Below, piece by piece: positions 2,287 to 21,540 of a stretch of 64,000 bases of DNA. The DNA comes from Aquimarina intermedia (GTDB lineage: Bacteria > Bacteroidota > Bacteroidia > Flavobacteriales > Flavobacteriaceae), in NCBI RefSeq assembly GCF_008124785.1, contig NZ_VNHU01000006.1:62001-126000 (forward strand), written 5' to 3'. How positions within the stretch are numbered: position 1 is the first letter of the stretch; each line of letters begins with the position of its first letter. The translations under genes were made by a program, and so were the position numbers. The notes under the pieces were generated by a model. That model was not told where the DNA came from. It made no database searches and saw nothing but the letters and a program-made list of their open reading frames with translations.

Positions 2287-2303
2287 GTCGGGATGACAGG
2301 ATT
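2287..2303. repeat. att-like direct repeat, displaced tRNA-Pro(GGG) 3' end
   Basis: The 17 bases match 21524-21540 exactly; the flanking bases differ on both sides. On the reverse strand they read as the 3' acceptor arm and part of the T-stem of tRNA-Pro(GGG), with no tRNA body attached. Interpreted as the original tRNA end displaced by integration. Confidence 0.75.
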
Positions 2304-2374
2304 ATTTTAATCATGATACTGCACTTCATCAAATTTTATTATAAATTATTTGATGATGAGTTTTTTGCAATTTT

Positions 2375-3973
2375 TTAGAATAGATATTCAGTGGACATAA
2401 AATTAGAATCCTCGGACTCAACTAACTTTTTTAAAATTGACGTGTTTATCTCATTATCTTTAGAAGCCACAAATGTTCTTATGGAAAATGTTCTTAGCGC
2501 ATCAAATACACTTAATGTAGCAACGGCTGAATTTTTTCTTCCAGTAAACGGATAAACATCTGGTCCACGTTGACAAGCGCTATTCAAATTTATCCTGCAA
2601 ACCAAGTTTGCTAAAATATCTACTAACGGACCTATTGATTTGGTATCTTTTCCAAAAATACTTACTTGCTGTCCATAATTGGATTCGGCAATATCATTTA
2701 AAGGTTCATTAATATTAGAAAAAGAAACAATAGGAACTACGGGGCCGAATTGTTCTTCATGAAACACTTTCATCAATTTGCTTACCGGGAATAATACTGC
2801 TGGGTAACAATAATTTGATGTCATTTCTCCTCCTCTGGCATTAAGAATTTTCGCACCATTTTGCAAAGCATCATCAACTAAGTCTCTAATATATTCAGGT
2901 TTATTAGGTTCTGGAAGGGGAGTTAAAAATACATTTTCTTCCCAAGGCATACCGTACTTTAACTCATCAACAGCTTTTGCAAAGCGTTTGTTAAATTCGT
3001 CTACAATACCATCGTGTACATACAAAATTTTAAGTGCCGTACATCGTTGTCCATTATAAGATAAAGATCCGCTAATACATTCTTTTACAGCAATGTCTAA
3101 ATCGGCATCCGGCAATATTATAGCCGGGTTTTTTGCTTCCAAGCCCAGCGCCAATCTTAATTTATTTTTATTGGGGTGCTGGTCTTGAAGGGCTACAGCA
3201 GAACTGCTATGGCCAATGAGTGCCAATACATCTATTTTTCCCGTTCGCATAATTGGAGATGCAATCGTTCTTCCTCGTCCAAAGACTATGTTAACCACTC
3301 CTGGCGGAAAACTTTCTTGAAAGGCCTTAAGTAGTGGGGTAATTAGCAAGACACCTAGTTTTGCCGGTTTAAAAACAGTCGTGTTACCCATTAAAATAGC
3401 GGGAATTAATAAACAAAATGTTTCGTTTAAAGGATAATTGTAGGGGCCTAGGCATAAAACTACACCAAGAGGGCTTCTTCTTATATGGGCGTGAATTCCG
3501 GACTCTTTTTCAAAACGCGCACTTTTTCTATCTAACTTTTTATATGCTTCAATAGTATCTGTAATGTAAGTGATAGTTTTATCGAACTCTTTGTAAGAAT
3601 CTATACGTGTTTTTCCGATTTCCCACATCAAAAGTTTAGAAACCAATTCTCGTTCTAATCTCATTTTTTCCACAAAATTTTCAAGACATTTTATACGCTC
3701 CTTGACGGGTAAAGTGGGCCATAGTCCCTGTCCGCGGTTAAAAGCTTTTTCTGCGGCGTATGAAGCTTCTAAAGCTGTCTCTTCTCCCATATCTGGAACG
3801 GATCCTAGCAGTGTTGGCTTCATTACATTTTCTTTATTTGGACTCTGTATGCTCGAAAATACTTTTGTAGTTGATCCTTTCCATTCTTTAATTTCTCCAT
3901 CAATAAGATATGATGTATTAAAAATTGGATCTATTTTAATACCATCTGGAATTATCTGCTGAATATTTGACAT
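2375..3973 (-). CDS. GapN-like NADP-dependent aldehyde dehydrogenase
   Basis: A 532-residue aldehyde dehydrogenase of the non-phosphorylating glyceraldehyde-3-phosphate dehydrogenase-like group. The nucleophile lies in NGQRCTALK, and PYNYPLNE matches the cofactor-side motif. The usual LELGGK glutamate motif reads [10 protein letters not shown] here, a variant I recall from this subgroup. The C-terminus has [16 protein letters not shown], also typical. Known: GapN oxidizes glyceraldehyde 3-phosphate to 3-phosphoglycerate with NADP. Inferred: because KDPG aldolase yields pyruvate and glyceraldehyde 3-phosphate, this enzyme would be the last step of the local pathway and supply NADPH. It is the last gene of the leftward run, 205 bp after eda, so it may have its own promoter. 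Another aldehyde substrate is possible. Confidence 0.8.
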
Positions 3974-4178
3974 TTTAAAAGTTTTTATATTCGATATATT
4001 AGTTTGAAGCTATACAATAGCTTTTGGATAAGCTTTCTCTTGAATGTAAATTATAATTCCTTGAATTCATCATCATAAATTGCTTGAATGTTTGGGGAAC
4101 TATTGGATATAGTGCTACTGTTTAAACAGAAAATCCTACGAAAAATGACAATTCTTTTAGATCAAGGTATTATAGAAC

Positions 4179-4847
4179 TCATTTTTTAAGATCTGAAATG
4201 ATCTGTAACGATGTTTTGGTTAGTTCCTCAATACGAGTGAAATCGTACATACCTTTTGAATCTTTTACCACGAGTTTTGAACCCATACCAACACAAGTAA
4301 CTCCTGCTTTAAACCAACTTTCCAAATTTTCCTTCGTAGGAGAAACTCCTCCGGTTGGCATAATACTAGTCCATTGGGAAGGTCCCTTTATAGCTTTAAC
4401 GAAGTCCGGGCCATAGATCCCACCGGGGAAAAGCTTTACGATTTCGCAACCTAACTCCTCGGCTTTCACAATTTCAGTTAAAGAACCACACCCGGGTGAC
4501 CAAAGCACTTTCCTACGATTACATACAACGGCAACATCTTCTCTTAAAACTGGAGTCACAATAAAATTGGCTCCTAATCCCATGTATCTTGATGCAGATG
4601 CTCCATCGGTTACAGAGCCAACTCCTAAAACCATTCCAGGTAATTTTGATAGTGCATATTTATTTAGTTCACTAAAAACGTCTTCGGCAAAATCGCCTCT
4701 TGCAGTGAACTCTGTTAATCTTGCTCCACCACTATATAGAGCATCCAATATTTTTTTGCATGTTGAAATGTCGCTATCATAAAACAATGGTACTAAACCT
4801 GTTTTATTCATGATATTTGCAACTTCAATTCTTAAGTATTGTGCCAT
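4179..4847 (-). CDS. eda: KDPG/KHG aldolase
   Basis: A 222-residue class I aldolase (TIM barrel) that splits 2-keto-3-deoxy-6-phosphogluconate into pyruvate and glyceraldehyde 3-phosphate in the cytoplasm. Family signatures seen: GGARLTEFTARGD (containing the catalytic-glutamate region), GVGSVTDGASA, and CEIVKLFPGGIYGPDFVKA, where the lysine of VKLFPG forms the Schiff base. MPTGGVSPT forms the phosphate-binding end. Length is normal. Its start lies 11 bp after the kdgK stop, so the two are co-transcribed and adjacent in the pathway. Confidence 0.93.
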   Translation of the reverse strand: MAQYLRIEVANIMNKTGLVPLFYDSDISTCKKILDALYSGGARLTEFTARGDFAEDVFSELNKYALSKLPGMVLGVGSVTDGASASRYMGLGANFIVTPVLREDVAVVCNRRKVLWSPGCGSLTEIVKAEELGCEIVKLFPGGIYGPDFVKAIKGPSQWTSIMPTGGVSPTKENLESWFKAGVTCVGMGSKLVVKDSKGMYDFTRIEELTKTSLQIISDLKK

Positions 4848-4858
4848 TGTAGTGTAAT

Positions 4859-5881
4859 TTATCTTGAGACTTTACCAGATGAATCTCCATTTAATAATTT
4901 TTCAATTTCAGCGAGTGTAATTAAATTGTAATCACCAGATATAGTATGTTTTAAACAACAGGCAGCAACGGCGATATTTAAAGCCCTTTGTTTGTTGTTG
5001 TTATCATTTAATAATCCGTAAATTAATCCGCCCATAAATGCGTCACCACTACCCACTCTATCAACTACAGGAGTTACTTCCTTTATATCTGCGTTATATA
5101 TAGTTTTGCCATCATATAAAATACCTCCAATTCGTTGATGAGAAGCACTAACAGAATATCTTAATGTTGTGGCCACAGTTTGTAAATTAGGACATAATTT
5201 AAATAATTGATCATATAAACCTGGTAATGATTTTTCGTTTTGATAGTTAGGGTTTACTTTATCTTTCCCTAACATAAATAATGCAGTGTCAATATCTCCT
5301 AAAATAAGGTTAGTATATTTTAAAAGTTCAGGCATCACTTGGCTTGGTTCTTTACCGTATTGCCATAACTTAGATCTATAATTTAAATCTGAAGAAATTG
5401 TAACCCCTAATTTATGTGCAACCTTTACTGCTTCTAGACATACTTCGGCAGCAGATTTTGAAATGGCAGGAGTAATACCACTCCAATGAAACCATGTTGC
5501 ATCTTTTAAAATAGACTCCCATTTTATTGAGCCTTTTAAGATTGTTGCCATAGAGCTATTTGCTCTATCATATACAACATTGCTACCACGAGTACCGGCA
5601 CCTGTTTCCAGATAATAAATACCTAGTCTATCTCCGCCATATACAACGTTTTTGGACTCTACATTTAACTTACGCATCTCCTTTAGTGCACAGGCTCCGA
5701 TTTCATTATTAGGTAATCTAGTAATAAACTCGACAGGCACTCCATAATTTGCCAAAGATACAGCCACATTAAATTCTCCGCCACCATAAGAAGCTGCAAA
5801 TGTTTTTGCTTGAGAAAATCTTAAATGACGCTCTGTGGAGAGTCTTAACATGATTTCTCCAAATGTGACAACTTTATTCAT
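4859..5881 (-). CDS. kdgK: 2-keto-3-deoxygluconate kinase (PfkB family)
   Basis: A 340-residue sugar kinase of the PfkB/ribokinase family. The N-terminus VVTFGEIMLRLS and the GGGEFNVAVSLANYG segment match KDG kinases, and the C-terminal VVDRVGSGDAFMGGL carries the anion hole and catalytic aspartate. Predicted reaction: KDG plus ATP gives KDPG, in the cytoplasm. It sits directly before eda, which uses its product, and 129 bp after the SDR reductase, which makes its substrate. 2-keto-3-deoxygalactonate specificity is conceivable, but the alginate context favours KDG. Confidence 0.92.
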   Translation of the reverse strand: MNKVVTFGEIMLRLSTERHLRFSQAKTFAASYGGGEFNVAVSLANYGVPVEFITRLPNNEIGACALKEMRKLNVESKNVVYGGDRLGIYYLETGAGTRGSNVVYDRANSSMATILKGSIKWESILKDATWFHWSGITPAISKSAAEVCLEAVKVAHKLGVTISSDLNYRSKLWQYGKEPSQVMPELLKYTNLILGDIDTALFMLGKDKVNPNYQNEKSLPGLYDQLFKLCPNLQTVATTLRYSVSASHQRIGGILYDGKTIYNADIKEVTPVVDRVGSGDAFMGGLIYGLLNDNNNKQRALNIAVAACCLKHTISGDYNLITLAEIEKLLNGDSSGKVSR

Positions 5882-6010: not shown

Positions 6011-6775
6011 TTAAATTCCTAGAGCTTGTCCCCCGCCCACTTGAATAGTTTCAGCAGTTATGAAAGCTGCATCCTTACTGGCTAAGAATGCAACTACAGA
6101 AGCTACATCTTCTGGTTTCCCTAGACGACCCAACATAATATTATTTGCCCAAGATGCAAAAACTTCTGGCTTTGTGGCTTTAATTTGGGCGTGAAACGGG
6201 GTATCTATTGTACCCGGAGATACTGCATTTACTCTAATACCATATTCAGCAAGATCTTTTGCTAATGCTCTAGTTATTGCATGAACGCCCGCTTTAGAGG
6301 TTCCATATATTCCTGCTCCGGGACCTCCCGCGGTCCATCCAGCATTTGATGTATAATTAATAATAGAAGGATGTTCTCCTTTTTTAAGGAATGGTATTGC
6401 TGCTCTTGAAGCAAAAAATACAGAATCGAGGTTAAGAGCCATTACATTTCTGTAAAATTCAGTGGTCATTTCTTCAAATCTAGATCTTCCTCCTAACCCT
6501 CCTGCGTTATTAACAAGAAGATCAATTTTACTATACTTTTGCCCAATTGCGGTTATGTTAGATGTTACAGCTTCTTCGTTCGTAACGTCGAACCCGTAAT
6601 ATTCAGCAGTGATTCCTTCAGCAGCAAGTTCTTTCACTCTTTTAGCTCCAGCTTCATTATTGATCCCGTTTATTAGTACCGTATAACCATCATTGCCTAA
6701 TCTTTTTGCTACTGCAAAACCTATTCCTCCTGTTGCTCCGGTTATTACAGCAACTTTTTCTTTTACATTACTCAT
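6011..6775 (-). CDS. SDR oxidoreductase, probable DEH reductase
   Basis: A short-chain dehydrogenase of 254 residues when read from MSNVKEKVAVITG. This start at 6775 is chosen over an upstream ATG at 6814 because it gives the usual family length and leaves the transporter gene free of overlap. Seen: cofactor motif TGATGGIG, NNAGG, the active-site serine in YTSNAGW and the YGTSK dyad. Known: alginate-degrading bacteria reduce 4-deoxy-L-erythro-5-hexoseulose uronate (DEH) to KDG with an SDR enzyme. Inferred from position: this is that reductase, between the inner-membrane transporter and KDG kinase. NADH or NADPH preference cannot be settled here. Confidence 0.82.
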   Translation of the reverse strand: MSNVKEKVAVITGATGGIGFAVAKRLGNDGYTVLINGINNEAGAKRVKELAAEGITAEYYGFDVTNEEAVTSNITAIGQKYSKIDLLVNNAGGLGGRSRFEEMTTEFYRNVMALNLDSVFFASRAAIPFLKKGEHPSIINYTSNAGWTAGGPGAGIYGTSKAGVHAITRALAKDLAEYGIRVNAVSPGTIDTPFHAQIKATKPEVFASWANNIMLGRLGKPEDVASVVAFLASKDAAFITAETIQVGGGQALGI

Positions 6776-6800
6776 ATTTCTTAAATTTATTTTTTTTGTT

Positions 6801-8090
6801 TTACTTGTTTTCAACTGGTTCTATCTTTTTAATCAGTATAAATATTGATATTAGGGCCATTGGGGCTAAAATGGCAATTACTATAAACGCAGGCGTATAG
6901 GATACAGAGGCAATAGTTGGTATTAGCGAGTTCATTATGATTACCGAAACTGCAGCAACACTTCCTGCCAATCCCGCTAAGGTACCAACCGATGGTCCTT
7001 TTAATAAATCACTCGAGATGGTTTGTATATTTCCTATTGCGAATTGAAACCCGAAAAGAACGACAGCGACTATATATATAAATGTCATCGGATTATTTTC
7101 TGTTATCAGGAAAATAATACCTAGTAATCCTAAAAATATCAATGAACAACCAATGGCAATTGTAATCTTTCTGGCTGCATCGACTGATTTTTTCTCCATT
7201 AACTTTCCTGAATACCAGCCCCCTATTATACTCCCTGCCATACCTCCTAAATATGATATCCATATAGTAGAACCAATTTCTTCGATACTAAATCCAAATT
7301 TTGAGTTCAAATAAAGAGGCATCCATCCAACAAATAGCCACCAGATAGGTTCAATAAAAAATCTAGAGGCTAGTACTCCCCATGACTCTTTATAACTTAA
7401 AATTTTCCCTATAGTTAATCCTTTTTCTTTTTTTGAATCACAAGCCTCTTTTTCAATTCGACTGTTCAAAATAACATTTCTCTCTTTTTCTGTAATCCAA
7501 GGATGTGTTTCTGGCGTCGTCTTGTTTATAAATAACCAAGGAATTACCCAAAGTAAACCAACAGCTCCAATAATTATAAAAGTTGTTCTCCAACCAAAAT
7601 GTCCATATAGATATGCAATTAGGATGGGTGCAATAACACTACCGAGTGAAGCGCCAGCATTGAAAATTCCTTGCGCTATGGCGCGTTGTTTGACTGGAAA
7701 CCACTCTCCATTACTTTTAACTGCTCCAGGCCAGTTTCCAGCTTCTCCCAAACCTAAGAGCGCTCTAAATAGCGTTAGAGAGAATAATCCTCGAGCAAAT
7801 GCATGAAATATAGATGCAACAGACCAAACAATAATAGATACCGTAAAGCCCATTCTCGTTCCAATAATATCATATAATTTTCCTGATAAAAATTTTCCTA
7901 AAGCATAGGTAATCATAAAAACATTCAACATAATCGCATAGTCCGATTCGTCCATCCGTAGGTCTTTCCCCATCTCTGGCCACATAACTCCAAAAGCTGT
8001 TCTATCGACGTAATTTATAACAGTAGCTAAACAAATTAATGTTATAATCCACCACCTAAGTCCTTTTATCTTCATGTTTTTATTGTTCAA
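6801..8090 (-). CDS. MFS transporter, hexuronate-type (ACS family)
   Basis: A 429-residue major facilitator protein with about twelve hydrophobic segments. NYVDRTAFGVMWPEM after the first membrane segment and LGLGEAGNWPGAVKSNGEWF are typical of the anion:cation symporter family containing hexuronate and galactonate carriers. Predicted job: carrying unsaturated uronate or DEH from periplasm to cytoplasm. The SDR that would reduce the import follows 25 bp downstream. An inner ATG at 8075 is an alternative start. The 193-bp gap before it may hold its own promoter, but none fitting the consensus was seen and no copy of the locus operator lies there. Confidence 0.85.
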   Translation of the reverse strand: MNNKNMKIKGLRWWIITLICLATVINYVDRTAFGVMWPEMGKDLRMDESDYAIMLNVFMITYALGKFLSGKLYDIIGTRMGFTVSIIVWSVASIFHAFARGLFSLTLFRALLGLGEAGNWPGAVKSNGEWFPVKQRAIAQGIFNAGASLGSVIAPILIAYLYGHFGWRTTFIIIGAVGLLWVIPWLFINKTTPETHPWITEKERNVILNSRIEKEACDSKKEKGLTIGKILSYKESWGVLASRFFIEPIWWLFVGWMPLYLNSKFGFSIEEIGSTIWISYLGGMAGSIIGGWYSGKLMEKKSVDAARKITIAIGCSLIFLGLLGIIFLITENNPMTFIYIVAVVLFGFQFAIGNIQTISSDLLKGPSVGTLAGLAGSVAAVSVIIMNSLIPTIASVSYTPAFIVIAILAPMALISIFILIKKIEPVENK

Positions 8091-8283: not shown

Positions 8284-8991
8284 TTACAATTCTACATTGT
8301 AACAATATTTATAAAGTTCATTAAAATGTTTTTTCATTCTTTTTTTAGCTAATTGAGGATCTTGATCCTTAATAGCCTCATAAATAAGTCGGTGTTCTTC
8401 GATTCCCGAATAAGCCGAGGCCTTATCACAAACATGATACTTTCCAAAATTCGTGATTATCTCGGGAGTTATTATTAACATAAACGTATTCATTGTACTA
8501 TTACGGCTTGCTCTTGCAATGGCTAAATGGAAGAGGAGATCTTCTTGCACCGCGTCTTCCCCGTTTTCAACTTTAGCAGCATAGGCTTCCAAGCAATCTT
8601 TCATAATCACAAGATCTTCTTCTGTTCTTCTTAGCGCTGCTAATCTTGAAGTTTTCAGCTCTAAAAGAATTCTTGTTTCAACAAGGGATTTAAAATCAGG
8701 ATCTTCAAGACTTAAGATGTCATCTATCATACCATTCATTGCAACCACCCCAATATTTGCTACAAAAGTGCCGCTTTGTGGGATTGACTTAAGTAATCCA
8801 TAAAACTCCAATTTCTGAATAGCTTCACGAATGGTGCTTCTAGGAACTTCAAATTTCTCAGAAAGCATTCGTTCGGAAGGTAGTTTATCTCCCGGCTCCA
8901 AATTTTTATGATTGATCAGTTTTCTAATCTTATCAATCACCTTTTCCTGAACGGAATAGTTTTCCATTAAATTAAGAATTTCAACCTTCAT
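8284..8991 (-). CDS. GntR/FadR-type transcriptional regulator of the alginate locus
   Basis: A 235-residue regulator. The winged-helix DNA-binding domain is at about residues 15-80, with LEPGDKLPSERMLSEKFEVP and STIREAIQKLEFYGLL. An FCD ligand-binding domain follows (about 95-225), which in FadR-type proteins binds organic acids. Single ORF, normal length. The palindrome TTGGTTAACCAA lies 20 bp before the start codon, and the same palindrome occurs in tandem at the susC and lyase promoters. FadR-type operators have the GT..AC core seen here. I infer that it represses all three promoters, including its own, until an alginate-derived intermediate binds. An ATG at 8967 is a possible alternative start. 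Confidence 0.88.
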   Translation of the reverse strand: MKVEILNLMENYSVQEKVIDKIRKLINHKNLEPGDKLPSERMLSEKFEVPRSTIREAIQKLEFYGLLKSIPQSGTFVANIGVVAMNGMIDDILSLEDPDFKSLVETRILLELKTSRLAALRRTEEDLVIMKDCLEAYAAKVENGEDAVQEDLLFHLAIARASRNSTMNTFMLIITPEIITNFGKYHVCDKASAYSGIEEHRLIYEAIKDQDPQLAKKRMKKHFNELYKYCYNVEL

Positions 8992-9222: not shown

Positions 9223-10542
9223 TTAGTAGCCAGGATTTTGAGTGATAACTCCTTCACTCACAAGAACTTCTGAAATTGGAATTGGGAACACATAATAATT
9301 AGGGTCAATCGTTTGGCCCATTTCAGCGTCAACGGTTCCTGTTCTAACCAAATCAAACCATCTTTGTCCTTCAAAGGCAAACTCTAATCTTCTTTCATCT
9401 TGAATGGCTTGTCTAACCAACGCCTCCGTATTAAGTACCGTATGATCCAGAGGAGCTAATCCAGCTCTGGTTCGAATAGGATCCAAAAGATTAAGTACAT
9501 CTTCTGGAGAAGAACCATTCTCATTTAATGTTTCTGCATATAACATAATAACATCTGCTAATCTTATTTCTATCCAGTCATGATCTGGCCCTCCCGATTG
9601 AGTATACTTTGGCGATCTTAAAGCTATCTCATCTATATTTACCGCTCTTCTTAAATCTCCAGGACTTGCATCAAAAGCAGCAATTAAATCTGTATCTAAC
9701 GGAGTAGGCGATTTTGTGTCTTGACCTAAATACCATTCCCAAAACTCTGAAAAACCATATTCATCTATCACAGAACTAGATATTTGAGTTGCGAATATTA
9801 CTTCTGAATTTTCAATGTTTTCTACCTTAAAAATGTCAGCATAATTTGTTTCTAAACTAATCCCAGCTACGGTGGCTGCATTAAAAAAAGCTTTGAATTG
9901 TGCTTCTGCACTAGTAAAATTACCCATATGTACATATGTTTTACCTAATAAGGCTTGCGCAGCGAGTTTTGAAGCTTTACCATTTGCATTCGTGTTATTC
10001 AAAACACTTATTGCAGCTTGTAAATCCGGAATGATCACGCTGTTGTAAACATTATCAACCGGTTGTCTTGTTAAATCGAAAGTAGGGATATCGCCTATAT
10101 CTGGTGATGTTAGAATTACAGTTACATCACCAAAAGCTTGCACTAGTTTAAAATAGGACAAAGCTCTTAAAAATTTAGCCTCCCCTATTTGAGCAGTATC
10201 TTCTGAATTTTCAATTACATTGTTCGAGCTTAATATTGATTTGTATAAAGCTGTGTACAAAGGTCCAAAAAATTGATCTTCCATTGCTGTTAAACCAGGA
10301 CCGTAGACATCAAATTCGGTATATGGAGATTCGAACATAAAAGCATTGTCTGCTCTAAAGTCGCCCATCACTGCTATTGGAGTAACAGCACCAAGCTGAT
10401 AATAATATGCCGCATTCAAAACTCCCTCAAAATCGGTCAAAGAATCTGAACTAGCAATATTTGGTGGAAATTCATCCAAATCAGTACTACATGAGATTGT
10501 TAATAATACTGCTCCTAAAAATAATATATATACTTTTTTCAT
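9223..10542 (-). CDS. SusD/RagB-like surface glycan-binding lipoprotein (alginate PUL)
   Basis: About 439 residues from MKKVYILFLGAVLL. That ATG at 10542 is preferred over one at 10554, which overlaps the susC stop, because it starts the signal peptide directly. Lipobox LTIS/C, so a lipoprotein, probably on the cell surface. Family features: the N-terminal TPR-like region, the C-terminal block IRLADVIMLYAETLNENG and RLEFAFEGQRWFDLVRTG, typical of SusD/RagB. It caps the partner SusC channel and hands over oligosaccharides. It follows susC directly and shares its transcript. The size is on the small side for SusD proteins. The alginate ligand is inferred from neighbours. Confidence 0.92.
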   Translation of the reverse strand: MKKVYILFLGAVLLTISCSTDLDEFPPNIASSDSLTDFEGVLNAAYYYQLGAVTPIAVMGDFRADNAFMFESPYTEFDVYGPGLTAMEDQFFGPLYTALYKSILSSNNVIENSEDTAQIGEAKFLRALSYFKLVQAFGDVTVILTSPDIGDIPTFDLTRQPVDNVYNSVIIPDLQAAISVLNNTNANGKASKLAAQALLGKTYVHMGNFTSAEAQFKAFFNAATVAGISLETNYADIFKVENIENSEVIFATQISSSVIDEYGFSEFWEWYLGQDTKSPTPLDTDLIAAFDASPGDLRRAVNIDEIALRSPKYTQSGGPDHDWIEIRLADVIMLYAETLNENGSSPEDVLNLLDPIRTRAGLAPLDHTVLNTEALVRQAIQDERRLEFAFEGQRWFDLVRTGTVDAEMGQTIDPNYYVFPIPISEVLVSEGVITQNPGY

Positions 10543-10553
10543 TATTTCTTTCA

Positions 10554-13500
10554 TTAAAAATTAACATTAAAACCGAACGTAAAGCTTCTGACAATTGGAC
10601 TGGCACCTATTTGAACGCCATAAGTAGTTGGCCCTAAGTAATTATTTTGTGTAGTATTCACACCCTCCGGATTAAACGAAGTATAATCATCCCCCCACAC
10701 ATACAACAAATTTGTCGATGCCACATATACTCTTGCCGAACTTATACCAATTTTACTTATCAATTCTGGCTTAAGGGTATACCCGAAAGTCAAATTTCTC
10801 AACGCTAAATAAGAAGCGTCTTGTATTTGCGCATCTAGTTGATTATTTGAATCTAAATAGTATTCTCCATTATGATCGGCAATACCATCATTATTAGCAT
10901 CAAAACTACCCCGTACTCTTCCTCCAAATTCTGAATTATAGTAAATCGGGTCGACATTCCAAACATCCCCTCCCTGGGCTCCTTGAATTTGGAAAGACAT
11001 ATCAAAAGCTTTATAGCTAATTGAGCTATTGAAACCATAATAAAAATCCGGGGTATTTTGTCCTATTTTGACTAAATCTCCACCCTCTTCAACTGTTTTT
11101 GTCTTATCAATTACACCATCACCATTTTGATCTACCACATAAAACGCTGAACTATTAACGTCGATAGCTCGCGTGGGATCTTCTATAAATCTATCTTCAA
11201 CTTGTCCAATGGTTTCTAATCCCCACATTTCACCAATTTCTCCACCTACATGATTTCTAAATACGGGACCTCTACCACTTTGACCATAAATTGATTGAGG
11301 TAGTTCTTCCAGCCCCCCTAGATCTGTAATTTCTGTTTTCACCGTTGATAGGTTACCTCCAAAATCCCAATTGAAATCTTCTTTTCGAATAATGCCTGCT
11401 GTTAGTTCAATCTCCAAACCAGAACTTCTCACATCACCAGCATTGACTCTTATCGAAGGGGTACCGAAAACTTCAGATACACTTAGATTAATTAATATAT
11501 CTTCAATATCAGATGTGTAATAATCTGCACTTAATCTTAATCTGTTATTTATAAAACCTAAATCAATTCCGTAGTTAGTCTCCGTATTAGTTTGCCAGGT
11601 TAGATTCGAATTGGCTATATCATCAGGAATTAAAAATCCAGTCCCTAATACTGTTGGTTGAGAGTTTAAAAGACTTAATGAATTGTAAGCCCCCAGATCT
11701 GAAGTAGACCCTAAAGAGCCGGTACTAAACCTTGGTTTCAATAAACTCAAGAATTCAAAGTTGTAAAAAGATTCGTTATGCACATTCCATCCTAAGGAAA
11801 TCGCCGGGAATGTTGCGTATCTTTCGTTAGCCCCGAAACGAGAATCACCATCTCTTCTTATTGATGCCGATATCAAATAACGATCGTCAAAGGCATAGTT
11901 AACTCTTCCAAAAATGCTCCATCTTGAAATAGTTTCGTCTCTTTCTCTTACTATAATATCCTCAGGTTCTAGGAGATTATAATTTACAATATCACTAAAG
12001 GGCACGTTTGAACCCGTTGTAGAAGTACCTCTAAAATAGATCTTTTGAAATTCAATTCCAGCTACTGCAGATATGTCATGACTTCCTATTTCTTTCGCAT
12101 AATTCAAAGTAGTTTCACTTAGCGTTGAGGTTTGTTTTACATTAGTTTCATCCAAGGCAGTTTGATTAGAGCGTGCCCTGGAATCAAACTCAAGTCCTCT
12201 CCAGAAATAGTCTTTGGTATCTCTGATATCTGCTCCTAGAACAGCTTTTAATTTTAACCCTTCCATAAGGTTATATTGTAAAAAAGTAGATACGTTTGCA
12301 AAGTACGTTTTTTGATATCGGTCTGTGTTGTCAAGCTTCGTTGCAGGGCCTGCATCTCCAGATCCTCCGATACCATTACCACTTCTTCCATAATGCCAAT
12401 CTTGGGCCGTATCACCAGGCTGTAATGTATAGATACTCTGATTAAATGGGGCATCAGGACCTGCTCGATAGCCATTATCAAATGGATCAAGTCCCAAAAT
12501 CTGTGCTTGTTGATCTAATTGTTGTACGAACGCAATAGAGGCTTCTGTATGATAAATAGGGCTGATATTATACGCTCTTAAAAGATCTCTCTGATCATGA
12601 CCTACAATATCTCTATCGGCTGCAAATCCATTGAAACTCAATCCTGTTTTAAACTTGTCTCCCAATTTTGCATCGACATTTATACGCGCATTAAGTCTTT
12701 CGTAACCTTCAGTTCTTACAATACCATCGGTATTTTGATAACCAATTGAAGCAAAATAATTTGAATTTTCAGTACCACCGCTATAGCTGAAGTCATGATT
12801 AGTAGTATAACCGCTTACATAAAGCCAATCTTCTACAGCCTGTACATCGGGTGAGTTTTTGTAGGCATTTATTTTGTAATTTAAAAAATCCGGATCCAAT
12901 TCAGAAACATCATACTTGCCACTGGTTATGCCAGTTTCTAATGTGTTTGCCCATTCTCCGGCTGTCATATTTATTCTATCACCCTTATATTTATTTGATA
13001 TACTAGCGTAAGCATTGTAACTAAAACTTGGTTTGCCTTCTTTTCCTTTTTTGGTTGTAATTAAAATAACTCCGTTAGCTCCTCTGGAACCATAAATAGC
13101 AGCTGAAGCAGCATCTTTTAATACCTCCACGCTTTGGATATCATTTGGGTTAACCGTTGCTAAACTTCCTGAAATTGGATATCCATCAACAACAATTAGT
13201 GGATTTGAATTGCCATTAATAGAAGAAGCAGCTCTGATTTGGATTTTAGGATCTGCTCCCGGTGACCCATTCTGATTCTGAATCAGTACCCCCGCTAATT
13301 TACCTGCTAACGCTTCATCCACACGAGTCGTTTGAATTGCTGCCACATCATCTCCTCCTACTTTAGCAATCGCACCTGTTACGTGACTTTTCTTCTGTGT
13401 ACCATAACCAACCACCATCACCTCATCTAAAGTATTAGCATCTTCGGCTAATGCAATCGTGAGATTATTTTGATTTGTAATGGTTATATTTTGAGTAACA

Positions 13501-13736
13501 AATCCTAGATAAGAAAATTGTAGTATATCGCCACGTTTTACCTCGAGTTGAAAATTTCCATTAAAATCTGTGGATGTACCTTTAGAGGTACCTTGAATAA
13601 GAACGTTAGCGCCAGGGATCCCAAGTTGGTCGGTGGCGGAAACCACAGTACCTGTTAGGGTATAGTTGTCTTGTGCTATAATTACAATGCAACTAAAAAG
13701 CATTATGATTAAAGTTAGCTTCGTTTTTAAATTCAT
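10554..13736 (-). CDS. SusC/RagA-like TonB-dependent transporter (alginate PUL)
   Basis: A 1060-residue outer-membrane transporter. Signal peptide of about 21 residues; a carboxypeptidase-like regulatory domain (about 25-110, LTGTVVSATDQLGIPGANV); the TonB-box region near DEVMVVGYGTQKK; a plug domain with DAASAAIYGSRGANGVI (about 205-225); and a long barrel ending in FTFGFNVNF with the terminal phenylalanine. No STN domain, so it is not itself a FecR-type transducer. It imports alginate oligomers with SusD. The predicted transcript starts near 13957, giving a leader of about 220 bases that contains hairpins and overlaps a possible antisense RNA. Confidence 0.93.
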   Translation of the reverse strand: MNLKTKLTLIIMLFSCIVIIAQDNYTLTGTVVSATDQLGIPGANVLIQGTSKGTSTDFNGNFQLEVKRGDILQFSYLGFVTQNITITNQNNLTIALAEDANTLDEVMVVGYGTQKKSHVTGAIAKVGGDDVAAIQTTRVDEALAGKLAGVLIQNQNGSPGADPKIQIRAASSINGNSNPLIVVDGYPISGSLATVNPNDIQSVEVLKDAASAAIYGSRGANGVILITTKKGKEGKPSFSYNAYASISNKYKGDRINMTAGEWANTLETGITSGKYDVSELDPDFLNYKINAYKNSPDVQAVEDWLYVSGYTTNHDFSYSGGTENSNYFASIGYQNTDGIVRTEGYERLNARINVDAKLGDKFKTGLSFNGFAADRDIVGHDQRDLLRAYNISPIYHTEASIAFVQQLDQQAQILGLDPFDNGYRAGPDAPFNQSIYTLQPGDTAQDWHYGRSGNGIGGSGDAGPATKLDNTDRYQKTYFANVSTFLQYNLMEGLKLKAVLGADIRDTKDYFWRGLEFDSRARSNQTALDETNVKQTSTLSETTLNYAKEIGSHDISAVAGIEFQKIYFRGTSTTGSNVPFSDIVNYNLLEPEDIIVRERDETISRWSIFGRVNYAFDDRYLISASIRRDGDSRFGANERYATFPAISLGWNVHNESFYNFEFLSLLKPRFSTGSLGSTSDLGAYNSLSLLNSQPTVLGTGFLIPDDIANSNLTWQTNTETNYGIDLGFINNRLRLSADYYTSDIEDILINLSVSEVFGTPSIRVNAGDVRSSGLEIELTAGIIRKEDFNWDFGGNLSTVKTEITDLGGLEELPQSIYGQSGRGPVFRNHVGGEIGEMWGLETIGQVEDRFIEDPTRAIDVNSSAFYVVDQNGDGVIDKTKTVEEGGDLVKIGQNTPDFYYGFNSSISYKAFDMSFQIQGAQGGDVWNVDPIYYNSEFGGRVRGSFDANNDGIADHNGEYYLDSNNQLDAQIQDASYLALRNLTFGYTLKPELISKIGISSARVYVASTNLLYVWGDDYTSFNPEGVNTTQNNYLGPTTYGVQIGASPIVRSFTFGFNVNF

Positions 13737-14016: not shown

Positions 14017-14364
14017 TTATTCCATAAAATCTTCTCTAATCGGACTAAAAACGTCAATAAGTACGCCTGCTTTGATACATATAGCACCATGCATTACATG
14101 GGGTGGAATGTAGAATGAATCTCCACCTTTAACGATTTTTGTCACATCGCCAATAGTTAACTTATATTCGCCACTTTCCACATAAGTAACTTGAGAATGA
14201 TGGTGTTCATGCATAACTCCAATTGCACCTACTTGAAAGTCGACCTTAACCAGCATAATTTTATCGTCGTAACCCATAATCTTACGTTTCAGTCCTTCTC
14301 CCACTATCTCCCATTCAATTTCGTCTCCAAATATAAATTCCTTACTTGGTCCAAATGATTTCAT
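14017..14364 (-). CDS. kdgF: KdgF-like cupin, unsaturated uronate ring opening
   Basis: A 115-residue single-domain cupin. The metal-binding motif HEHHHSQVTYVESGEYKLTI (about residues 56-75) and the second motif with HVMHGAIC match KdgF. Known: KdgF speeds conversion of the 4,5-unsaturated uronates released by pectate and alginate lyases to linear keto-sugars. Its position 39 bp after the PL7 lyase gene, with a shared promoter, makes alginate-derived uronate the likely substrate. No signal peptide, so it acts in the cytoplasm. Length is normal. Confidence 0.85.
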   Translation of the reverse strand: MKSFGPSKEFIFGDEIEWEIVGEGLKRKIMGYDDKIMLVKVDFQVGAIGVMHEHHHSQVTYVESGEYKLTIGDVTKIVKGGDSFYIPPHVMHGAICIKAGVLIDVFSPIREDFME

Positions 14365-14403: not shown

Positions 14404-16476
14404 TTACTTGCTTTTCCTAAGTTTATTGTGTGGTACCCCGGGACCGATGGTAGCCTCTCTAAACCATACTTCAGTATAACAGCCATTTTCATATTGCTTG
14501 GCAATATCACCTCCATAAGTTTCGGCGCCTGCACACCAGACCATATTTGTTTCCGGGGCCTTTCCATTAGTCTGATTATAGGCTCCTTGTTTGAAGTAAT
14601 TTAACTCCCCGCTGTATGCCGTGGGACGTTCGCTTCCATCTTGTCCTATTGGCACAAATAATTTCTTGACTTGATTTGGAATGTCGGATTGCTTTACATA
14701 TTGGGATGTAATCAGATTTTTAGTAAACGTTTTTGTTTTATGGTTTTCACTTTTAAATGTGAGGTACATAATACCATTATATACATTTACTTCATAACTA
14801 AACTCTTCACCTAATGCAATCCCATCCTTGGGTTCTGCAGGATAGTCATTTTTGCTTTTTCCAATGACAGACATATCATGCCCCCATACCGCAGTTGAAT
14901 AATCCCACCTACGGGAATTATCATCGCCTGCTGTATTGATTTCATAATTCCAAAAGACAGAGCCTTTATCGTGTCCCGGGAATTTCTTGTAAAAGATTTT
15001 TAGAGGTTCGTTTTCGTGACCTTCGCCACTATGGATCTGCCCAACCACAACGGCGTAAGAGGCAGCAACTCTGGCATCGCCAGAGATGGAAACTTGCATA
15101 ACCTTGCAGGTGCCAGTTAACTTACCTCCCTCTTCTGGTGTCCAGTTTCTTTTTTCTTGTAACTCTGTTCTCGTATTACTGGAGTTGGGTGAAGTGACAC
15201 CGGAATTTGGCGTTTTATATACCACCCAACGCCGGGTGCCATCGATTACGCTGTAGAAATAGTCCTTGTGCTCAAACTCAGTAAGATCTTCTACCGTTGT
15301 TCCATTCCCCATCAATATTTTAAATTTATCCATATGTGGAATTACCTCATTGGGATAAACCGTTTTTTGGGCCAATCCATCATTTGCCTCAAAATATCCT
15401 GAATTGGATATGGCTTCATTACTGATCTCGATACTTGCTGATTTAAACCAAACTTCGGCATAATTACCATCTGCATATTGTTCTTTAAGATCACCACGGT
15501 GGATTTCGGCACCAGAACACCAAACTTTGTTTATTTTAGGGTCTTTACCATTAGTTTGGTTGTAACAGCCCATTTTAAAAAAGAGACCTTCTTTAGCATA
15601 AGCACTTGCTCGCTCCACCCCATCTTGGTCTATTGGTACAAATAATTGTTTGACTTGTTCTGGAATATTTTTGCGTTGAACATATTCAGAAGAAACGAGA
15701 TTTTTAGTAAAAATTTTAGTTTCATGACCTTCACTAGTAAAGGCTAGATGCATGATACCGTCTTTAATTTCTACTTCATAGCTAAATTCTTCTCCTATGG
15801 CAATTCCATTTTTTGGTTCTGGCGGATATGTACTCTCTTCACTACCGACTACTGAAAAATCATAGCCCCAAACGGGATAGGAATAATCCCACCTTTTGGA
15901 ATTATCTTCTCCCTCAGTATTGATTTCATAATTCCAAAAGACTGAACCTTTAGTATGACCGGGAAATTTTTTGTAAAATATTTTAAGAGGCTCATTCTCA
16001 TGACCATCTGCACTATGGATCTGTCCAACAACCACCGAGTACGTTGCCGCCACGCGGGCATCCCCTGTGCTTGACACATTCATCACCTTAAGAGTAGCAC
16101 TCATTTTGGCATCGGTTGTGGGCAACCATTTTCTTAGTTGCGCCAGTTCTGTCCGTGTGTTATTTGAAGTCCCATGGGTGTTCCCTGCGTTGGGACTTTT
16201 AAATACTACCCAGTCTTCGGTACCATCATTTGTGGTATAAAAGAAATTCTCGTTCTCATAGTTTGTTGCAGGACCTACGTTAGTTCCATCACCCAAGATT
16301 AAATTCCAATGTTGAAAAAATGGTATAACCTCATTTGCATTGGTACGTATTGCTGCTTCCTCTGAACTGTTCACCGAAGTCTGCTTCCTGTTTTTCACGC
16401 AGCCTGAAAAAAGTAATAAAGCAATTGTGGCAAAAAGATAGAAGGTAGAAACATAGCTAGATTTTCTTGAACGCAT
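14404..16476 (-). CDS. Tandem-domain alginate lyase lipoprotein (PL7-PL7)
   Basis: A 690-residue lipoprotein (lipobox LFSG/C, Cys26) with two full PL7 alginate-lyase domains, about 48-345 and 375-680. Both keep the family motifs: RTEL (residues 108-111 in domain 1), QIH (152-154), and the third motif, FFKMGCYNQ in domain 1 and YFKQGAYNQ in domain 2. The Arg, Gln, His and second Tyr of the catalytic set are thus present twice; only the first Tyr of the third motif is Phe in domain 1. The two domains are similar throughout, pointing to internal duplication. Sequence style recalls PL7 subfamily 5 (from memory). Probably surface-exposed, making oligomers for SusC/SusD. It is first in its own operon with kdgF. 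Confidence 0.9.
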   Translation of the reverse strand: MRSRKSSYVSTFYLFATIALLLFSGCVKNRKQTSVNSSEEAAIRTNANEVIPFFQHWNLILGDGTNVGPATNYENENFFYTTNDGTEDWVVFKSPNAGNTHGTSNNTRTELAQLRKWLPTTDAKMSATLKVMNVSSTGDARVAATYSVVVGQIHSADGHENEPLKIFYKKFPGHTKGSVFWNYEINTEGEDNSKRWDYSYPVWGYDFSVVGSEESTYPPEPKNGIAIGEEFSYEVEIKDGIMHLAFTSEGHETKIFTKNLVSSEYVQRKNIPEQVKQLFVPIDQDGVERASAYAKEGLFFKMGCYNQTNGKDPKINKVWCSGAEIHRGDLKEQYADGNYAEVWFKSASIEISNEAISNSGYFEANDGLAQKTVYPNEVIPHMDKFKILMGNGTTVEDLTEFEHKDYFYSVIDGTRRWVVYKTPNSGVTSPNSSNTRTELQEKRNWTPEEGGKLTGTCKVMQVSISGDARVAASYAVVVGQIHSGEGHENEPLKIFYKKFPGHDKGSVFWNYEINTAGDDNSRRWDYSTAVWGHDMSVIGKSKNDYPAEPKDGIALGEEFSYEVNVYNGIMYLTFKSENHKTKTFTKNLITSQYVKQSDIPNQVKKLFVPIGQDGSERPTAYSGELNYFKQGAYNQTNGKAPETNMVWCAGAETYGGDIAKQYENGCYTEVWFREATIGPGVPHNKLRKSK

Positions 16477-16492
16477 AATTAATTATATAAAA

Positions 16493-16688: not shown

Positions 16689-16712
16689 TTTCAATATAGA
16701 TACAGATTAACT

Positions 16713-17035: not shown

Positions 17036-17425
17036 ATGGTAAAATCAAAAGGACTTAATAGAATTCTTGAGGAGATAGATAAAAGAGGCCTATCAGCTTA
17101 CAAAATCAGCCAGCATACAAACCTAACTCCAAAGGGAATACGGAAAATTAAGGATAGAGCTACAGAAAACCCAAGAATTGCCACTTTGAATGAGATCGCA
17201 TCCTTTTTAGGTATAAGCACAAATACGGATCAAACTTCATCTATAACAAACAGGGATACTCTCAATGATGAAGATTTAGTTATTCTATCTTATCAGGTGA
17301 AAAAAAATTGGAATCAATTATTACGACTTGAAGATTTTAAACCCTTCTTTTTTTATCAGATTGCAAAAACACTTGATATGGAGATAGAGGATATTTTTAC
17401 TGCAGCATTGAATAAAGGAAAATAA
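17036..17425 (+). CDS. Small HTH (XRE-like) protein
   Basis: A 129-residue protein whose first 65 residues resemble a Cro/C1-type helix-turn-helix (LSAYKISQHTNLTPKGIRKI, then ATLNEIASFLGIS). The rest (about 80-129) includes FFFYQIAKTLDMEIEDIF, which looks like a second partial repressor-like helix pair. Probably binds DNA; target unknown. Stand-alone, in the accessory part of the island between the duplicated gene tail and a gene-poor region. Small regulators of this kind are common on integrated elements, and it may be a leftover control gene. Confidence 0.65.
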   Translation: MVKSKGLNRILEEIDKRGLSAYKISQHTNLTPKGIRKIKDRATENPRIATLNEIASFLGISTNTDQTSSITNRDTLNDEDLVILSYQVKKNWNQLLRLEDFKPFFFYQIAKTLDMEIEDIFTAALNKGK

Positions 17426-18689: not shown

Positions 18690-18710
18690 TTAAGTATTTT
18701 ACTAAAATTA

Positions 18711-18740: not shown

Positions 18741-19061
18741 GAAAGCAGCTTATATCTCAAAAATTTGCAGCCTCTAATATACTATCCTCAATTTCATAAA
18801 TCCCTACTGACCAAAGTGAAAAGAAATATTTTTTAAAGGATTTTTTTATGGGCTAATTCTTTAACACCTGATATGTCGTGAAATTTCCATATCGTCTATT
18901 TACCATTCAAGTCTATTTTTTATTTTTTTTGAGATTCCCTTTAATAAAATAACTATTTATGAATTTTAAATAATTTTTTAGTTAAAAAAATACAAATATA
19001 TTAATTATATAACTTTTTCTCTAAATTTGTTATATTATTTTTTAACTTAAACACACAACTC
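18741..19061. other. Intergenic region before the metalloprotease gene
   Basis: AT-rich, no gene seen. TAAATTTG at 19022-19029, 33 bp before the start codon, fits the -7 consensus, although no -33 element lies at the right distance. It is the best promoter candidate for the metalloprotease gene. Confidence 0.4.
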
Positions 19062-19901
19062 ATGAAAAAAAGGAGCCTATTGTCCCTCTTCGGGGTAATT
19101 TTACTAGCAGCCAGTATATTTATTTCCTGCGAAAAAGAATCTACTGCCATCGAAGAGGTGTCTGAACATGTTATTTTTAAAGAAGCACTTTCAAAATTAG
19201 AGAAAGCTCATTTTAAGACACAAAATGCACGTCAAATAGAGTTTATGGGAGAAACAGGGATCGCTGTAGAGGATATGTTTTTTACCCTTGAGCAAATTGA
19301 TGAATTATCTCAAATTGAGATTGGACCTAATCAAAAGCAGTATCGTACAACCAATTTGGTTACTGGTCTCCCAAGGTTAATTACAGTAAGCGTTGATCCA
19401 TCTCTAGGAACCTTAGGATCTAACGCCTTAGATGCTATGATAAACATGTATAATTCTGAAAATTTACAATTGACATTTCAGCGTGTTGCATTTGGACTAA
19501 AAGGTAAAAATCAAGCAGCTATTGAAGTAACCGAATTTTATGAATTAGAATCTGGAGGCTTTATTACTTTGGGGAGAGCTGCCGGGTTCCCCACACGGAA
19601 AGGAGATCCAGCTAAAGGGTTTGGAATTAATAGTCGCTGGTTTGAACTTCTCAACCCATCATTGGCCGAAGTTACAGGAACTATGGCTCATGAAGTTGGA
19701 CATTGCATTGGGTTTCGTCATACTGACTATATGACTAGAGAAAGTTGTGGTCAAAATGTTAACGAAGGAAGTGCGCGTGTGGGAGCCATTCATATTAGTG
19801 GGACACCCACGGTTTCTGATGCCACTTCGTTAATGCAATCTTGCGGTCCTGCAAATAATTTCAATAACAATGATAAGATCGCATTAGATGTATTATATTA
19901 A
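19062..19901 (+). CDS. M57-type (HEIGH-like) zinc metalloprotease lipoprotein
   Basis: A 279-residue lipoprotein (lipobox FIS/C near residue 23). The zinc motif TMAHEVGHCIGFRHTDY, with the metzincin-like third ligand spacing HExxHxxGxxH, is at about residues 208-224. A downstream stretch ending SLMQSCGP resembles the Met-turn region. This matches Pfam M57, dual-action HEIGH metallopeptidases, common in Bacteroidota. Expected to be a surface or periplasm-facing protease; substrate unknown. Stand-alone gene in the accessory part of the island, apparently intact while its neighbours are decayed. Confidence 0.8.
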   Translation: MKKRSLLSLFGVILLAASIFISCEKESTAIEEVSEHVIFKEALSKLEKAHFKTQNARQIEFMGETGIAVEDMFFTLEQIDELSQIEIGPNQKQYRTTNLVTGLPRLITVSVDPSLGTLGSNALDAMINMYNSENLQLTFQRVAFGLKGKNQAAIEVTEFYELESGGFITLGRAAGFPTRKGDPAKGFGINSRWFELLNPSLAEVTGTMAHEVGHCIGFRHTDYMTRESCGQNVNEGSARVGAIHISGTPTVSDATSLMQSCGPANNFNNNDKIALDVLY

Positions 19902-20161: not shown

Positions 20162-20339
20162 GGTATGCTGTAAATCCTAGGTGCTTTTATACATTTTGAT
20201 CAAAACTATAGCGCCTTAGACCTAAGAAAGATTCAGTATTAGGATGTATTCTATTACCTCAAACTTCACCCCCTCCCTATAAACCGGGCCATTTAAAATC
20301 AAAGCGAATAAAAGGTTAACTTCAAACAACTATTTGCTT

Positions 20340-20639
20340 ATCAAACGATCGAAGTATTCAGAGTCGTAGATTGTATTTACGATCAGAAAGGTGAAAACGG
20401 GTACAAGTATTCAAGAGATCTGCCAAAAGGTAGGAAACAGCGAGACCACCTTTCACAATTGGAAGAAGAAATACGGTGTACTAGGCGTATCAGAGCCACG
20501 TAGACTGAAGAACCTCGAAGAGGTGAACTCGCATTTAAAGAAACTGATGGCCGACCTTAGTTCGAACAAACAGATTCTACAGGACGTACTTAAAAAACGC
20601 TTTTACAATAATTTGAGAACCAACACTTACAACGCTTAA
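20340..20639 (+). pseudogene. IS3-family transposase OrfA remnant
   Basis: The frame reads IKRSKYSES, a TAG stop, then IVFTIRKVKTGTSIQEICQK and on to LKKLMADLSSNKQILQDVLKK. This is the helix-turn-helix and leucine-zipper part of IS3-type OrfA (HTH_Tnp_1). The TAG replaces an expected glutamine codon of the common ESQIV motif. A GTG at 20391 could start only a truncated product. No OrfB (DDE domain) follows and no terminal inverted repeats were found, so the element is dead. Confidence 0.7.
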
Positions 20640-20704
20640 CAAGGTTCAAGAACCATTTCTCAAGAACGAAATAAGGCGATAATCTATTTGAGTAACTATT
20701 ACAG

Positions 20705-21272
20705 TGGTCTATTTACCGACGGTTGCTCATTTGTTTTTGATGATCGACAGGTATCTAACTCCTTAAATATTTTTCAAATTTGAGCATGGAATTATAGTTC
20801 AGTTCCTTTAATTACACATAATTAGTCTTAAAGGAATTCAATAAAAATTTAGGAATATAGCTTTGAGTTGTGAAATAATTCTTGTGTGTTCCCAATTTCA
20901 ATTTACCTTCCATATCCATATCATGGTAGGAGATAATATCCATTATTGAATGATTGCCTCATCTGATCCAAGGAATCCTACCTTTATGGCTTTTGAAGTA
21001 ATCAATTTATTCATCTTCATTAAATCACGGTATCATTGAAATAATGGATTATAGGTCTCATCCAAATAACTGTTTAGAATCCTTGTCTTCTGACTTGTAC
21101 CCCTGGCTCTGTTCTTGTTGACACCCCAATCAGTAAATAAAACTTTACGCTTCTGTCTAATGGTAGCTCTTTTACCATTTACTGTGATTCTTCCGTAAAG
21201 AGATGCTTAGTTTTCCTTTACTCTGGAAAAGTAAGCACAGAACAACATATTGAATGTTGAAGTTATTTTCAT
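20705..21272 (-). pseudogene. Decayed tyrosine integrase of the island
   Basis: Reading leftward from an ATG at 21272, the frame gives MKITSTFNMLF, a stop, then LYGRITVNGKRATIRQKRKV, GTSQKTRILNSYLDETYNPL, KLITSKAIKVGFLGSDE, and after a frameshift IISYHDMDMEGKLKLGTHKN, YLKELN-like LKELNYNSMLKFEKYLR and IPVDHQKQM. This is the arm-binding and core-binding N-terminal part of Bacteroidota site-specific integrases. At least five in-frame stops and one frameshift are present, and the catalytic domain (R..HxxR..Y) is not seen. It lies about 250 bp inside the tRNA end, where an island integrase is expected. Confidence 0.75.
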
Positions 21273-21366
21273 GATTTCGTCTTTTAGTTAACACTATATA
21301 TGTTTGTCAGACGAAAGTCAAATCACTTATAAAGATACATTTATTTAGCAAAAACATTAACATTTT

Positions 21367-21416
21367 AACAAATCGGTCAACACTTTCCAAATTATAAATT
21401 TGGTGACCGATTTGTT
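21367..21416. repeat. Interrupted inverted repeat beside the integrase remnant
   Basis: Outer arms AACAAATCGGTC / GACCGATTTGTT (12 bp, perfect) enclose inner arms CCAAATT / AATTTGG (7 bp). It lies between the dead integrase and the tRNA, where recombinase or excisionase arm sites often occur; it could also be a hairpin transcript end. Confidence 0.7.
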
Positions 21417-21466
21417 GACGGCTTTATAGGTAACAATTAATTTATTTCGATACTATTAAAAACAAC

Positions 21467-21500
21467 AAAAACCTGAAATTCATAAGATTAACAGGTTTTT
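21467..21500 (-). terminator. Terminator after tRNA-Pro(GGG)
   Basis: AAAAACCTG (21467-21475) pairs with CAGGTTTTT (21492-21500), a 9-bp stem with T-runs on both strands, 25 bp beyond the tRNA 3' end. A smaller hairpin AGTATT/AATACT lies between them. In the integration model this was supplied by the incoming element. Confidence 0.65.
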
Positions 21501-21523
21501 AGTATTGATTAATACTTTAATAT

Positions 21524-21540
21524 GTCGGGATGACAGGATT
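21524..21540. repeat. att-like direct repeat at the tRNA end of the island
   Basis: The same 17 bases as 2287-2303, here forming the 3' acceptor strand and part of the T-stem of the intact tRNA-Pro(GGG) gene. Confidence 0.75.

Follow-up and report, generated by a model that had tools for sequence, protein, structure and literature searches.

A probable decayed island at tRNA-Pro(GGG) holding an alginate utilization locus in Aquimarina intermedia

In gut Bacteroides, polysaccharide utilization loci (PULs) for porphyran and agarose are found on integrative conjugative elements (ICEs). The alginate PUL of Aquimarina intermedia described here resembles them as a catabolic PUL apparently moved by an integrative element, whereas it differs in its alginate substrate, its tRNA-Pro site, its dead element and its flavobacterial host, which is marine by inference. 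The locus lies in a window of 64,000 nucleotides (the whole stretch of DNA analysed, C6:62001-126000 of the 3.49-Mb genome), and positions below the window start are given as negative numbers (C6:62000 = 0). A dead island at tRNA-Pro(GGG) holding a transferred alginate PUL is in our view the best reading of this region, and probably the right one.

The closest gene orders are found in the alginate utilization loci (AULs) of Flagellimonas/Allomuricauda (L087 and L113), which share with the window the order PL7-cupin-SusC-SusD-GntR-MFS-SDR-KdgK on one strand (PL, polysaccharide lyase; MFS, major facilitator superfamily; SDR, short-chain dehydrogenase/reductase). L087, the alginate PUL of Flagellimonas allohymeniacidonis, keeps this order as far as the kinase with one extra SDR. 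Related loci were taken as the best 80 of 365 relatives, with gene matches required to have at least 50% coverage and, the cupin excepted, at least 38% identity. Over these 80 loci the PL7 proteins are 74-82% identical to that of the window. Unlike the AULs of Flavobacteriaceae, the window PUL is situated between copies of a tRNA-Pro 3' end, is accompanied by an integrase relic and terminates in a GapN-like gene, which is uncommon in PULs of this kind among the examined loci. A tRNA was found near eight of the 80 related PULs (in L095 it is a tRNA-Pro(TGG) situated about 9 kb ahead of the PL7 gene), and an integrase-like sequence, a weak one, near a single locus (L107). A published account of the AUL stresses vertical inheritance within Flagellimonas after an early horizontal gene transfer (PMC12323373); in the present case, transfer into the genus is indicated. 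A literature search over limited term combinations found no report of an alginate PUL on a tRNA-borne element.

The repeat, the integrase relic and the insertion site

The exact 17-mer GTCGGGATGACAGGATT was found at 2287-2303 and at 21524-21540, the second copy being the 3' end of tRNA-Pro(GGG). The open reading frame (ORF) of an oxidoreductase stops at 2257, and 29 bp separate this stop from the distal repeat. Both the link between the oxidoreductase flank and the tRNA 3' end and the 29-bp spacing had been claimed in an earlier reading of the same DNA (the original prediction), and both were verified by position. The whole genome contains only these two exact copies, compared with about 0.00015 expected per genome from composition, and a chance repeat was rejected on these two counts. 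Three genomic copies carry two mismatches, namely the 3' ends of two tRNA-Pro(TGG) genes and a free copy at 22274; at up to three mismatches, four matches were observed in the window and 0.06 expected. No further copy with up to four mismatches was found between the two repeats, and from -12000 to 23000 that level of mismatch adds just the pair belonging to tRNA-Pro(TGG), at 22274 and 22407. A tRNA island is recognised by borders that each carry a direct repeat of the tRNA 3' end, as is the case here (17 bp, exact), and by an integrase at the tRNA-side border, which is present by relic only. An Rfam search over 1-30000 returned two tRNAs and nothing else.

The tyrosine integrase relic corresponds to the N-terminal part of the protein. 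A 57-residue piece of it (21036-21206) matched the Pfam family Arm-DNA-bind_5 (E=1.2e-5), while three other pieces submitted to the family search gave no integrase family. Two stretches of the relic align to residues 1-105 (66%) and 107-204 (53%) of a 421-residue integrase in the congener G020; the remainder of that protein, including its catalytic domain at 278-389, has no match in the island at E 1e-3. The decayed integrase that had been predicted beside the tRNA end is borne out by these matches, with its catalytic part not found. Homology also extends over the 805 bp inward from the tRNA, which are 74% identical to the G020 DNA lying directly after tRNA-Pro(TGG).

In G020 that DNA is the start of a 50.4-kb conjugative element at tRNA-Pro(TGG) (G020:C40:15651-66048; L240-L242), whose far end is a free copy of the last 17 bases of this tRNA, 50,399 bp off. 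Because the G020 element is bounded in this way, the integrase family is taken to use tRNA-Pro 3' ends with a 17-bp repeat. The G020 integrase is a whole ORF with Arm_5, SAM_5 and Phage_integrase domains, and is followed by ORF6N, cation-efflux, TraG, HTH_17 and RteC genes (Pfam) and, further inward, by genes for DUF5712, a coupling protein, a TonB receptor, P-type ATPases and RND efflux; Pfam named no relaxase among the submitted ORFs. The element shares with the window island the integrase family, the tRNA-adjacent position of the integrase, the tRNA-Pro 3' end, the 17-bp repeat and the arm site there. It differs in its size, its whole integrase, its conjugation genes and its metal-efflux-type cargo, whereas the island here is 19.2 kb long and broken, and does not have the TraG, coupling protein and relaxase by which CTnDOT-like ICEs are recognised.

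Two smaller islands of the same family were also found at tRNA-Pro(TGG). The one in G044 (L243:8141-19621) has a 399-residue integrase (62% identical) and a far copy of 15/17 bases at 11.5 kb, and the one in G064 (L244:11438-19300) has integrase pieces and a far copy of 14/17 bases at 7.8 kb. The scan for free tRNA-end copies allowed zero mismatches and excluded copies before NG, so that these two far copies are invisible to it. The ORFs listed for both islands are unlike conjugation genes (by eye; no family search was made). Five of 63 distinct tRNA-Pro trailers, a count within the retrieved loci that is smaller than all tRNA-Pro genes of the genus, open with this integrase family or its relics (G020, G044, G000, G064 and G023); a sixth match, the TGG trailer of the window, is the same window relic reached from a greater distance. 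A second kind of integrase was found behind another tRNA-Pro in L033 (Pfam).

The genus sample comprised 66 genomes including that of the window (65 congeners), and the site itself was surveyed in 25 of the 65 relatives, four of them (G001, G028, G049 and G061) pre-chosen for carrying the tRNA. In many congeners tRNA-Pro(GGG) comes after a conserved gene block (C6:48.4-53.5 kb). Both were present in the retrieved stretches of 15 of the 26 genomes (25 relatives and our own), with the 3' end of the tRNA towards the block in 14 of these and reversed in G011. The block lies 160 bp from the tRNA in G020, 2.9-6.3 kb from it in eight genomes, 9.8-19.8 kb in five and 30.0 kb here; in G045 and G061 the distance is about 3 kb. 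In 11 of the 26 genomes no tRNA-Pro(GGG) was found in the 20 kb retrieved. On the other side, genomes of the genus commonly have tRNA-Pro(TGG) beside a TonB receptor block. The island thus occupies a stretch that varies in the genus. The original prediction had held that genus-wide conservation of the alginate genes at this place would speak against an island, and on checking, the PUL was found not to be conserved there. Its proposal of an island at tRNA-Pro(GGG) is upheld by this result, by the variable 3' side of the tRNA and by the homologous integrase end of the G020 element.

At this one site the tRNA-Pro(GGG) 3' end was observed in two forms within the genus, GTCGGGATGACAGGATT (here, G049 and G061) and GTCGGGTAGAGAGGATT (for example G020, G045 and G033).

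Origin of the alginate genes

SusC matches at E 1e-180 or better were found in eight of the 66 genomes (our own, six at 63-64% identity and one at 38%) and PL7 matches at E 1e-20 in six (our own, and five covering the C-terminal half only), with up to 11 candidates scored per genome in one of the searches. The congeneric SusC and PL7 copies are never at this site; they occur on other contigs or, in the one-contig genomes G024 and G033, hundreds of kb off. The window SusC is up to 73% identical to those of Eudoraea and Flagellimonas, compared with 63-64% for the congeners. A tree was made of the window SusC and 31 loci (more than 800 query residues aligned, more than 50% identity), including four of the six congeners at 63-64%, namely those with loci. 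The four congeneric copies form one clade (100/100). The window SusC falls outside it, together with Eudoraea and Flagellimonas (92/96). When the window SusC was forced into a clade with the four congeners, the tree became 123 log units worse (approximately unbiased (AU) test, p-AU 4e-62).

The ranking by MutL is opposite to that by SusC. MutL identity is 73-79% in 12 of 13 congeners (67% in G002), 58-67% with 16 flavobacterial PUL hosts, among them Flagellimonas allohymeniacidonis at 58%, and 50% with a Saprospiraceae metagenome-assembled genome. A very close relative was not found, as the nearest MutL among the 13 congeners is 79% identical. Likewise, the MFS transporter is 80% identical to Flagellimonas/Allomuricauda copies whose hosts share 58-59% MutL. 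Taken together, the SusC tree and the MutL contrast indicate a foreign origin for the cargo. Base composition was tried as a further sign of foreign DNA and discarded as uninformative, since the PUL and its flanks both have 33-39% G+C; the region at 17-19 kb is lower (28%). The original prediction that alginate use was gained in one step is not supported, as related SusC or PL7 genes occur elsewhere in congeners and the PUL could have arrived apart from the integrase.

Alternative histories of the region

According to the island reading, a tyrosine integrase would have inserted an island at the 3' end of tRNA-Pro(GGG) and left 17-bp repeats at both ends, and the 19.2 kb from 2287 to 21523 would be its decayed remainder. 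The integrase family of the carrier would be the one found with other cargo on the conjugative element and the small islands at tRNA-Pro in congeners, and the cargo here would be an alginate PUL taken from another flavobacterial lineage. The 2287 copy would then be the far end of the element itself and the PUL would have come with it, after which the integrase would have lost its catalytic half and the block would have become fixed.

Several observations weigh against this history. The evidence for a far end at 2287 is the 17-mer by itself. G020, G044 and G064 (3/3) have an inverted copy of the tRNA-end arm site inside the far end, and the arm scan found none inside the 2287 repeat. Sought elsewhere as an older far border, the arm site was not found beyond the tRNA end at up to two mismatches; at up to three there were 10 places including the tRNA end, compared with 6-15 in eight shuffles. 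Inward of the 2287 copy, the first 70 bp show no resemblance to the three other far ends, which says little because those of G020 and G064 are also unlike each other. No terminator-like site was found outward of the 2287 copy, a position where the three other elements have a hairpin (by eye). A canonical far end with arm site and displaced terminator is therefore not supported, and the missing features would be explained by deletion or replacement near the far end, or by accretion. When the ORFs of the G020 element were compared with the island at E 1e-3, the integrase alone matched and no conjugation-gene relics were found. On the cargo side, the window SusC is a long branch whose grouping with Eudoraea and Flagellimonas falls under the star threshold, and the clade constrained in the AU test was chosen after the tree had been viewed. 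The left flank adds to these points. Orthologs of the oxidoreductase (E 1e-60) were found in nine of the 65 congeners with no tRNA in their 4-kb loci, and the empty site expected from the original prediction (oxidoreductase stop, about 29 bp, tRNA-Pro(GGG)) was seen in no relative. Among the matches listed, the ortholog of four congeners (G016, G034, G032 and G009) lies 7.7-23.5 kb from tRNA-Pro(TGG), on its upstream side, which is different from the predicted place. The 10 kb left of the distal repeat (-7970 to 2287) is likewise away from tRNA-Pro(GGG) in the examined relatives, and for this reason the oxidoreductase is not regarded as a long-standing neighbour of the tRNA. Two genes from this 10-kb stretch, which by eye are a SulP-type transporter and a gene of the metallo-beta-lactamase type, have relatives in G010 at about 8-11 kb from the conserved block.

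The main rival to the island reading holds that the PUL arrived separately, next to the scar of an old integrase. The integrase relic would belong to an older element, the PUL would have reached the same variable region afterwards, through homologous recombination or a different element, and the 2287 repeat would be the far end of whichever element was present. We regard this as rather unlikely, yet deserving of real weight. It draws on the absence of any G020 conjugation gene from the island, on a far end that lacks the arm site seen in the other elements, on the rearrangement shown by the transposase remnant at 20370-20636, on the mostly lineage-specific content of the 30 kb that separate the conserved block from the tRNA and on the single, weak integrase-like sequence among the related PUL loci. 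It is opposed by the lack of an extra repeat copy between the two borders, and by the G044 and G064 islands, which have the same integrase family and ORFs that by eye are unlike conjugation genes. Very improbable, in our judgement, is a different origin of the 2287 copy as a tRNA 3'-end echo of the type lying 110-160 bp downstream, later parted from its tRNA by other DNA. Such copies (up to two mismatches) do occur near tRNA-Pro in eight genomes including the window (22274-22290), but all eight are preceded by a T-arm mimic (by eye). The 2287 copy has no such mimic, like the far repeat of G020, and therefore belongs with the element ends. Vertical inheritance of the PUL together with a chance 17-mer is hardly credible. 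The related SusC genes of seven congeners and the PL7 C-terminal-half relatives of five would suit it, but about 1.5e-4 exact copies are expected per genome, a single SusC clade with the four congeners was rejected and the congeneric copies sit elsewhere.

Gene content and neighbouring tRNA copies

The PUL genes all lie on the minus strand, from 16476 down to 2375 (Table 1), and include the SusC/SusD pair and at least one alginate lyase by which an AUL is recognised. The PUL is of the ordinary flavobacterial type plus a GapN-like gene.

Table 1. Features of the island and its borders in window coordinates
Feature	Coordinates	Strand	Evidence
Distal copy of tRNA-Pro(GGG) 3' end, putative attachment site	2287..2303	+	exact 17-bp match
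Aldehyde dehydrogenase, GapN-like (non-phosphorylating glyceraldehyde 3-phosphate (GAP) dehydrogenase)	2375..3973	-	Pfam Aldedh 1e-90
KDPG/KHG aldolase	4179..4847	-	NCBIfam NF005499 345 bits, cut-off 275
Probable 2-keto-3-deoxygluconate (KDG) kinase (PfkB)	4859..5881	-	Pfam PfkB 1e-27; same position in related PULs
SDR, probable 4-deoxy-L-erythro-5-hexoseulose uronate (DEH) reductase (from its place)	6011..6814	-	adh_short_C2 2.3e-63
MFS transporter	6801..8090	-	MFS_1 1.7e-60
GntR/FCD regulator	8284..8991	-	Pfam
SusD	9223..10554	-	family search
SusC	10554..13736	-	TIGR04056 753 bits; tree
Cupin, KdgF-like	14017..14364	-	solved KdgF 5fq0 E=2.3e-20
Two-domain PL7 alginate lyase	14404..16476	-	Alginate_lyase2, two stretches, 5.7e-97
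Helix-turn-helix (HTH) protein	17036..17425	+	HTH_26 6.9e-6
M57-type metallopeptidase	19062..19901	+	Peptidase_M57 2.7e-41
Transposase remnant (HTH_Tnp_1), adjoining the integrase-relic break point	20370..20636	+	Pfam 7.1e-11
Tyrosine integrase relic, limited to the N-terminal part and interrupted by stops and frame breaks	20758..21287	-	family and congener matches
Element end on the integrase side, with a terminator-like hairpin (by eye) and the arm-like site GTCAACAAATCGG at 21407-21419	21288..21523	-	G020 homology, arm scan
tRNA-Pro(GGG), last 17 bases being the proximal repeat	21524..21599	-	tRNA call

In the predicted pathway, import by SusC and SusD would be followed by PL7 cleavage to unsaturated uronate, opening by the KdgF-like cupin, reduction by the SDR, phosphorylation by the kinase and cleavage by the aldolase into pyruvate and GAP; the GapN-like enzyme would give back NADPH. 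The top structural-database match of the cupin is 7zyb, labelled just 'Cupin' (1.3e-38). The kinase matches the kinase part of NF041633 (413 bits, under the cut-off of 700), and the SDR is 77-90% identical to the MFS-adjacent SDR of related PULs. The MFS transporter reaches 80% with the Flagellimonas/Allomuricauda PUL copies. The aldolase was reached in 11 of the 80 related loci. The C-terminal domain of the PL7 protein (residues 372-681) matched 4be3 (E=5.4e-145), which we take to be the exolytic AlyA5 of Zobellia. The Hepar_II_III_C domain occurs in PL17/PL15-type lyases and had no match in the whole genome; PL6 was not searched for. A full alginate route is plausible but unproven, given this nearest relative of the PL7 C-terminal half and a genome without Hepar_II_III_C. 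The claim that everything needed lies inside the island thus stands for the PUL genes themselves, while completeness hangs on the PL7 protein.

The best solved relatives of the GapN-like protein are NADP-dependent GAP dehydrogenases (3prl, E=1.6e-73), and no NCBIfam model reached its cut-off among the 25 matches listed. The gene was found at E 1e-100 in two of the 66 genus genomes (our own, and G021 at 65%), and the related alginate loci include one distant relative (25%, L119). The enzyme could return the NADPH spent by the SDR.

Beside the island, on the minus strand at 22274-22482, a second copy of the last 17 nt of tRNA-Pro(TGG) is present 116 nt downstream of the tRNA. A T-arm-like hairpin stands before this copy and a 13-bp terminator-like hairpin after it, and in the predicted fold the 5' acceptor strand of the tRNA pairs with the second copy (z -5.5). 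Free tRNA-Pro end copies with up to two mismatches at about 110-160 bp were found in eight genomes (43 sources scanned; G048 from a separate scan), all preceded by a strand that is able to pair with ATCCT, ATCTT or ATCCA and is T-arm-like by eye. Echo units were thus observed in seven other genomes, with paired changes in G047 and G060 by eye. The spacer of the window echo matches spacers of the Ser-Pro-Arg tRNA clusters in G057 and G010, with identities of 79% over 117 bases and 86% over 87 bases, and the tRNA family alone matched the unit in Rfam. Among the matches listed, G045 has four tandem tRNA-Pro(TGG)-like copies with 317-bp spacing (G045:C8:73336-74389), one of which is called by ARAGORN (L173). 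A 155-residue ORF at 21860-22327 (+), for which Pfam gave no match, runs with its 3' part into the tRNA-Pro(TGG) terminator and the echo and is probably a remnant.

The cargoes met with this carrier are of the metal-efflux type in G020, other genes in G044 and G064, and the alginate pathway here. We suggest, tentatively, that one tRNA-Pro-specific integrase family may act as a cargo-swapping carrier in the genus, that whole nutrient pathways may enter at tRNA-Pro(GGG/TGG), and that the alginate cargo may have brought its own GapN-like NADPH return, which would couple the sugar-acid reductase step to glycolysis. Transfer of alginate PULs among flavobacteria is usually deduced from gene trees alone, and the island reading would provide a physical mechanism for it, with an element family and an insertion site now named. 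As the same genus also contains an element related to the carrier in which the integrase ORF is whole and conjugation genes are present, such transfer would be directly testable.

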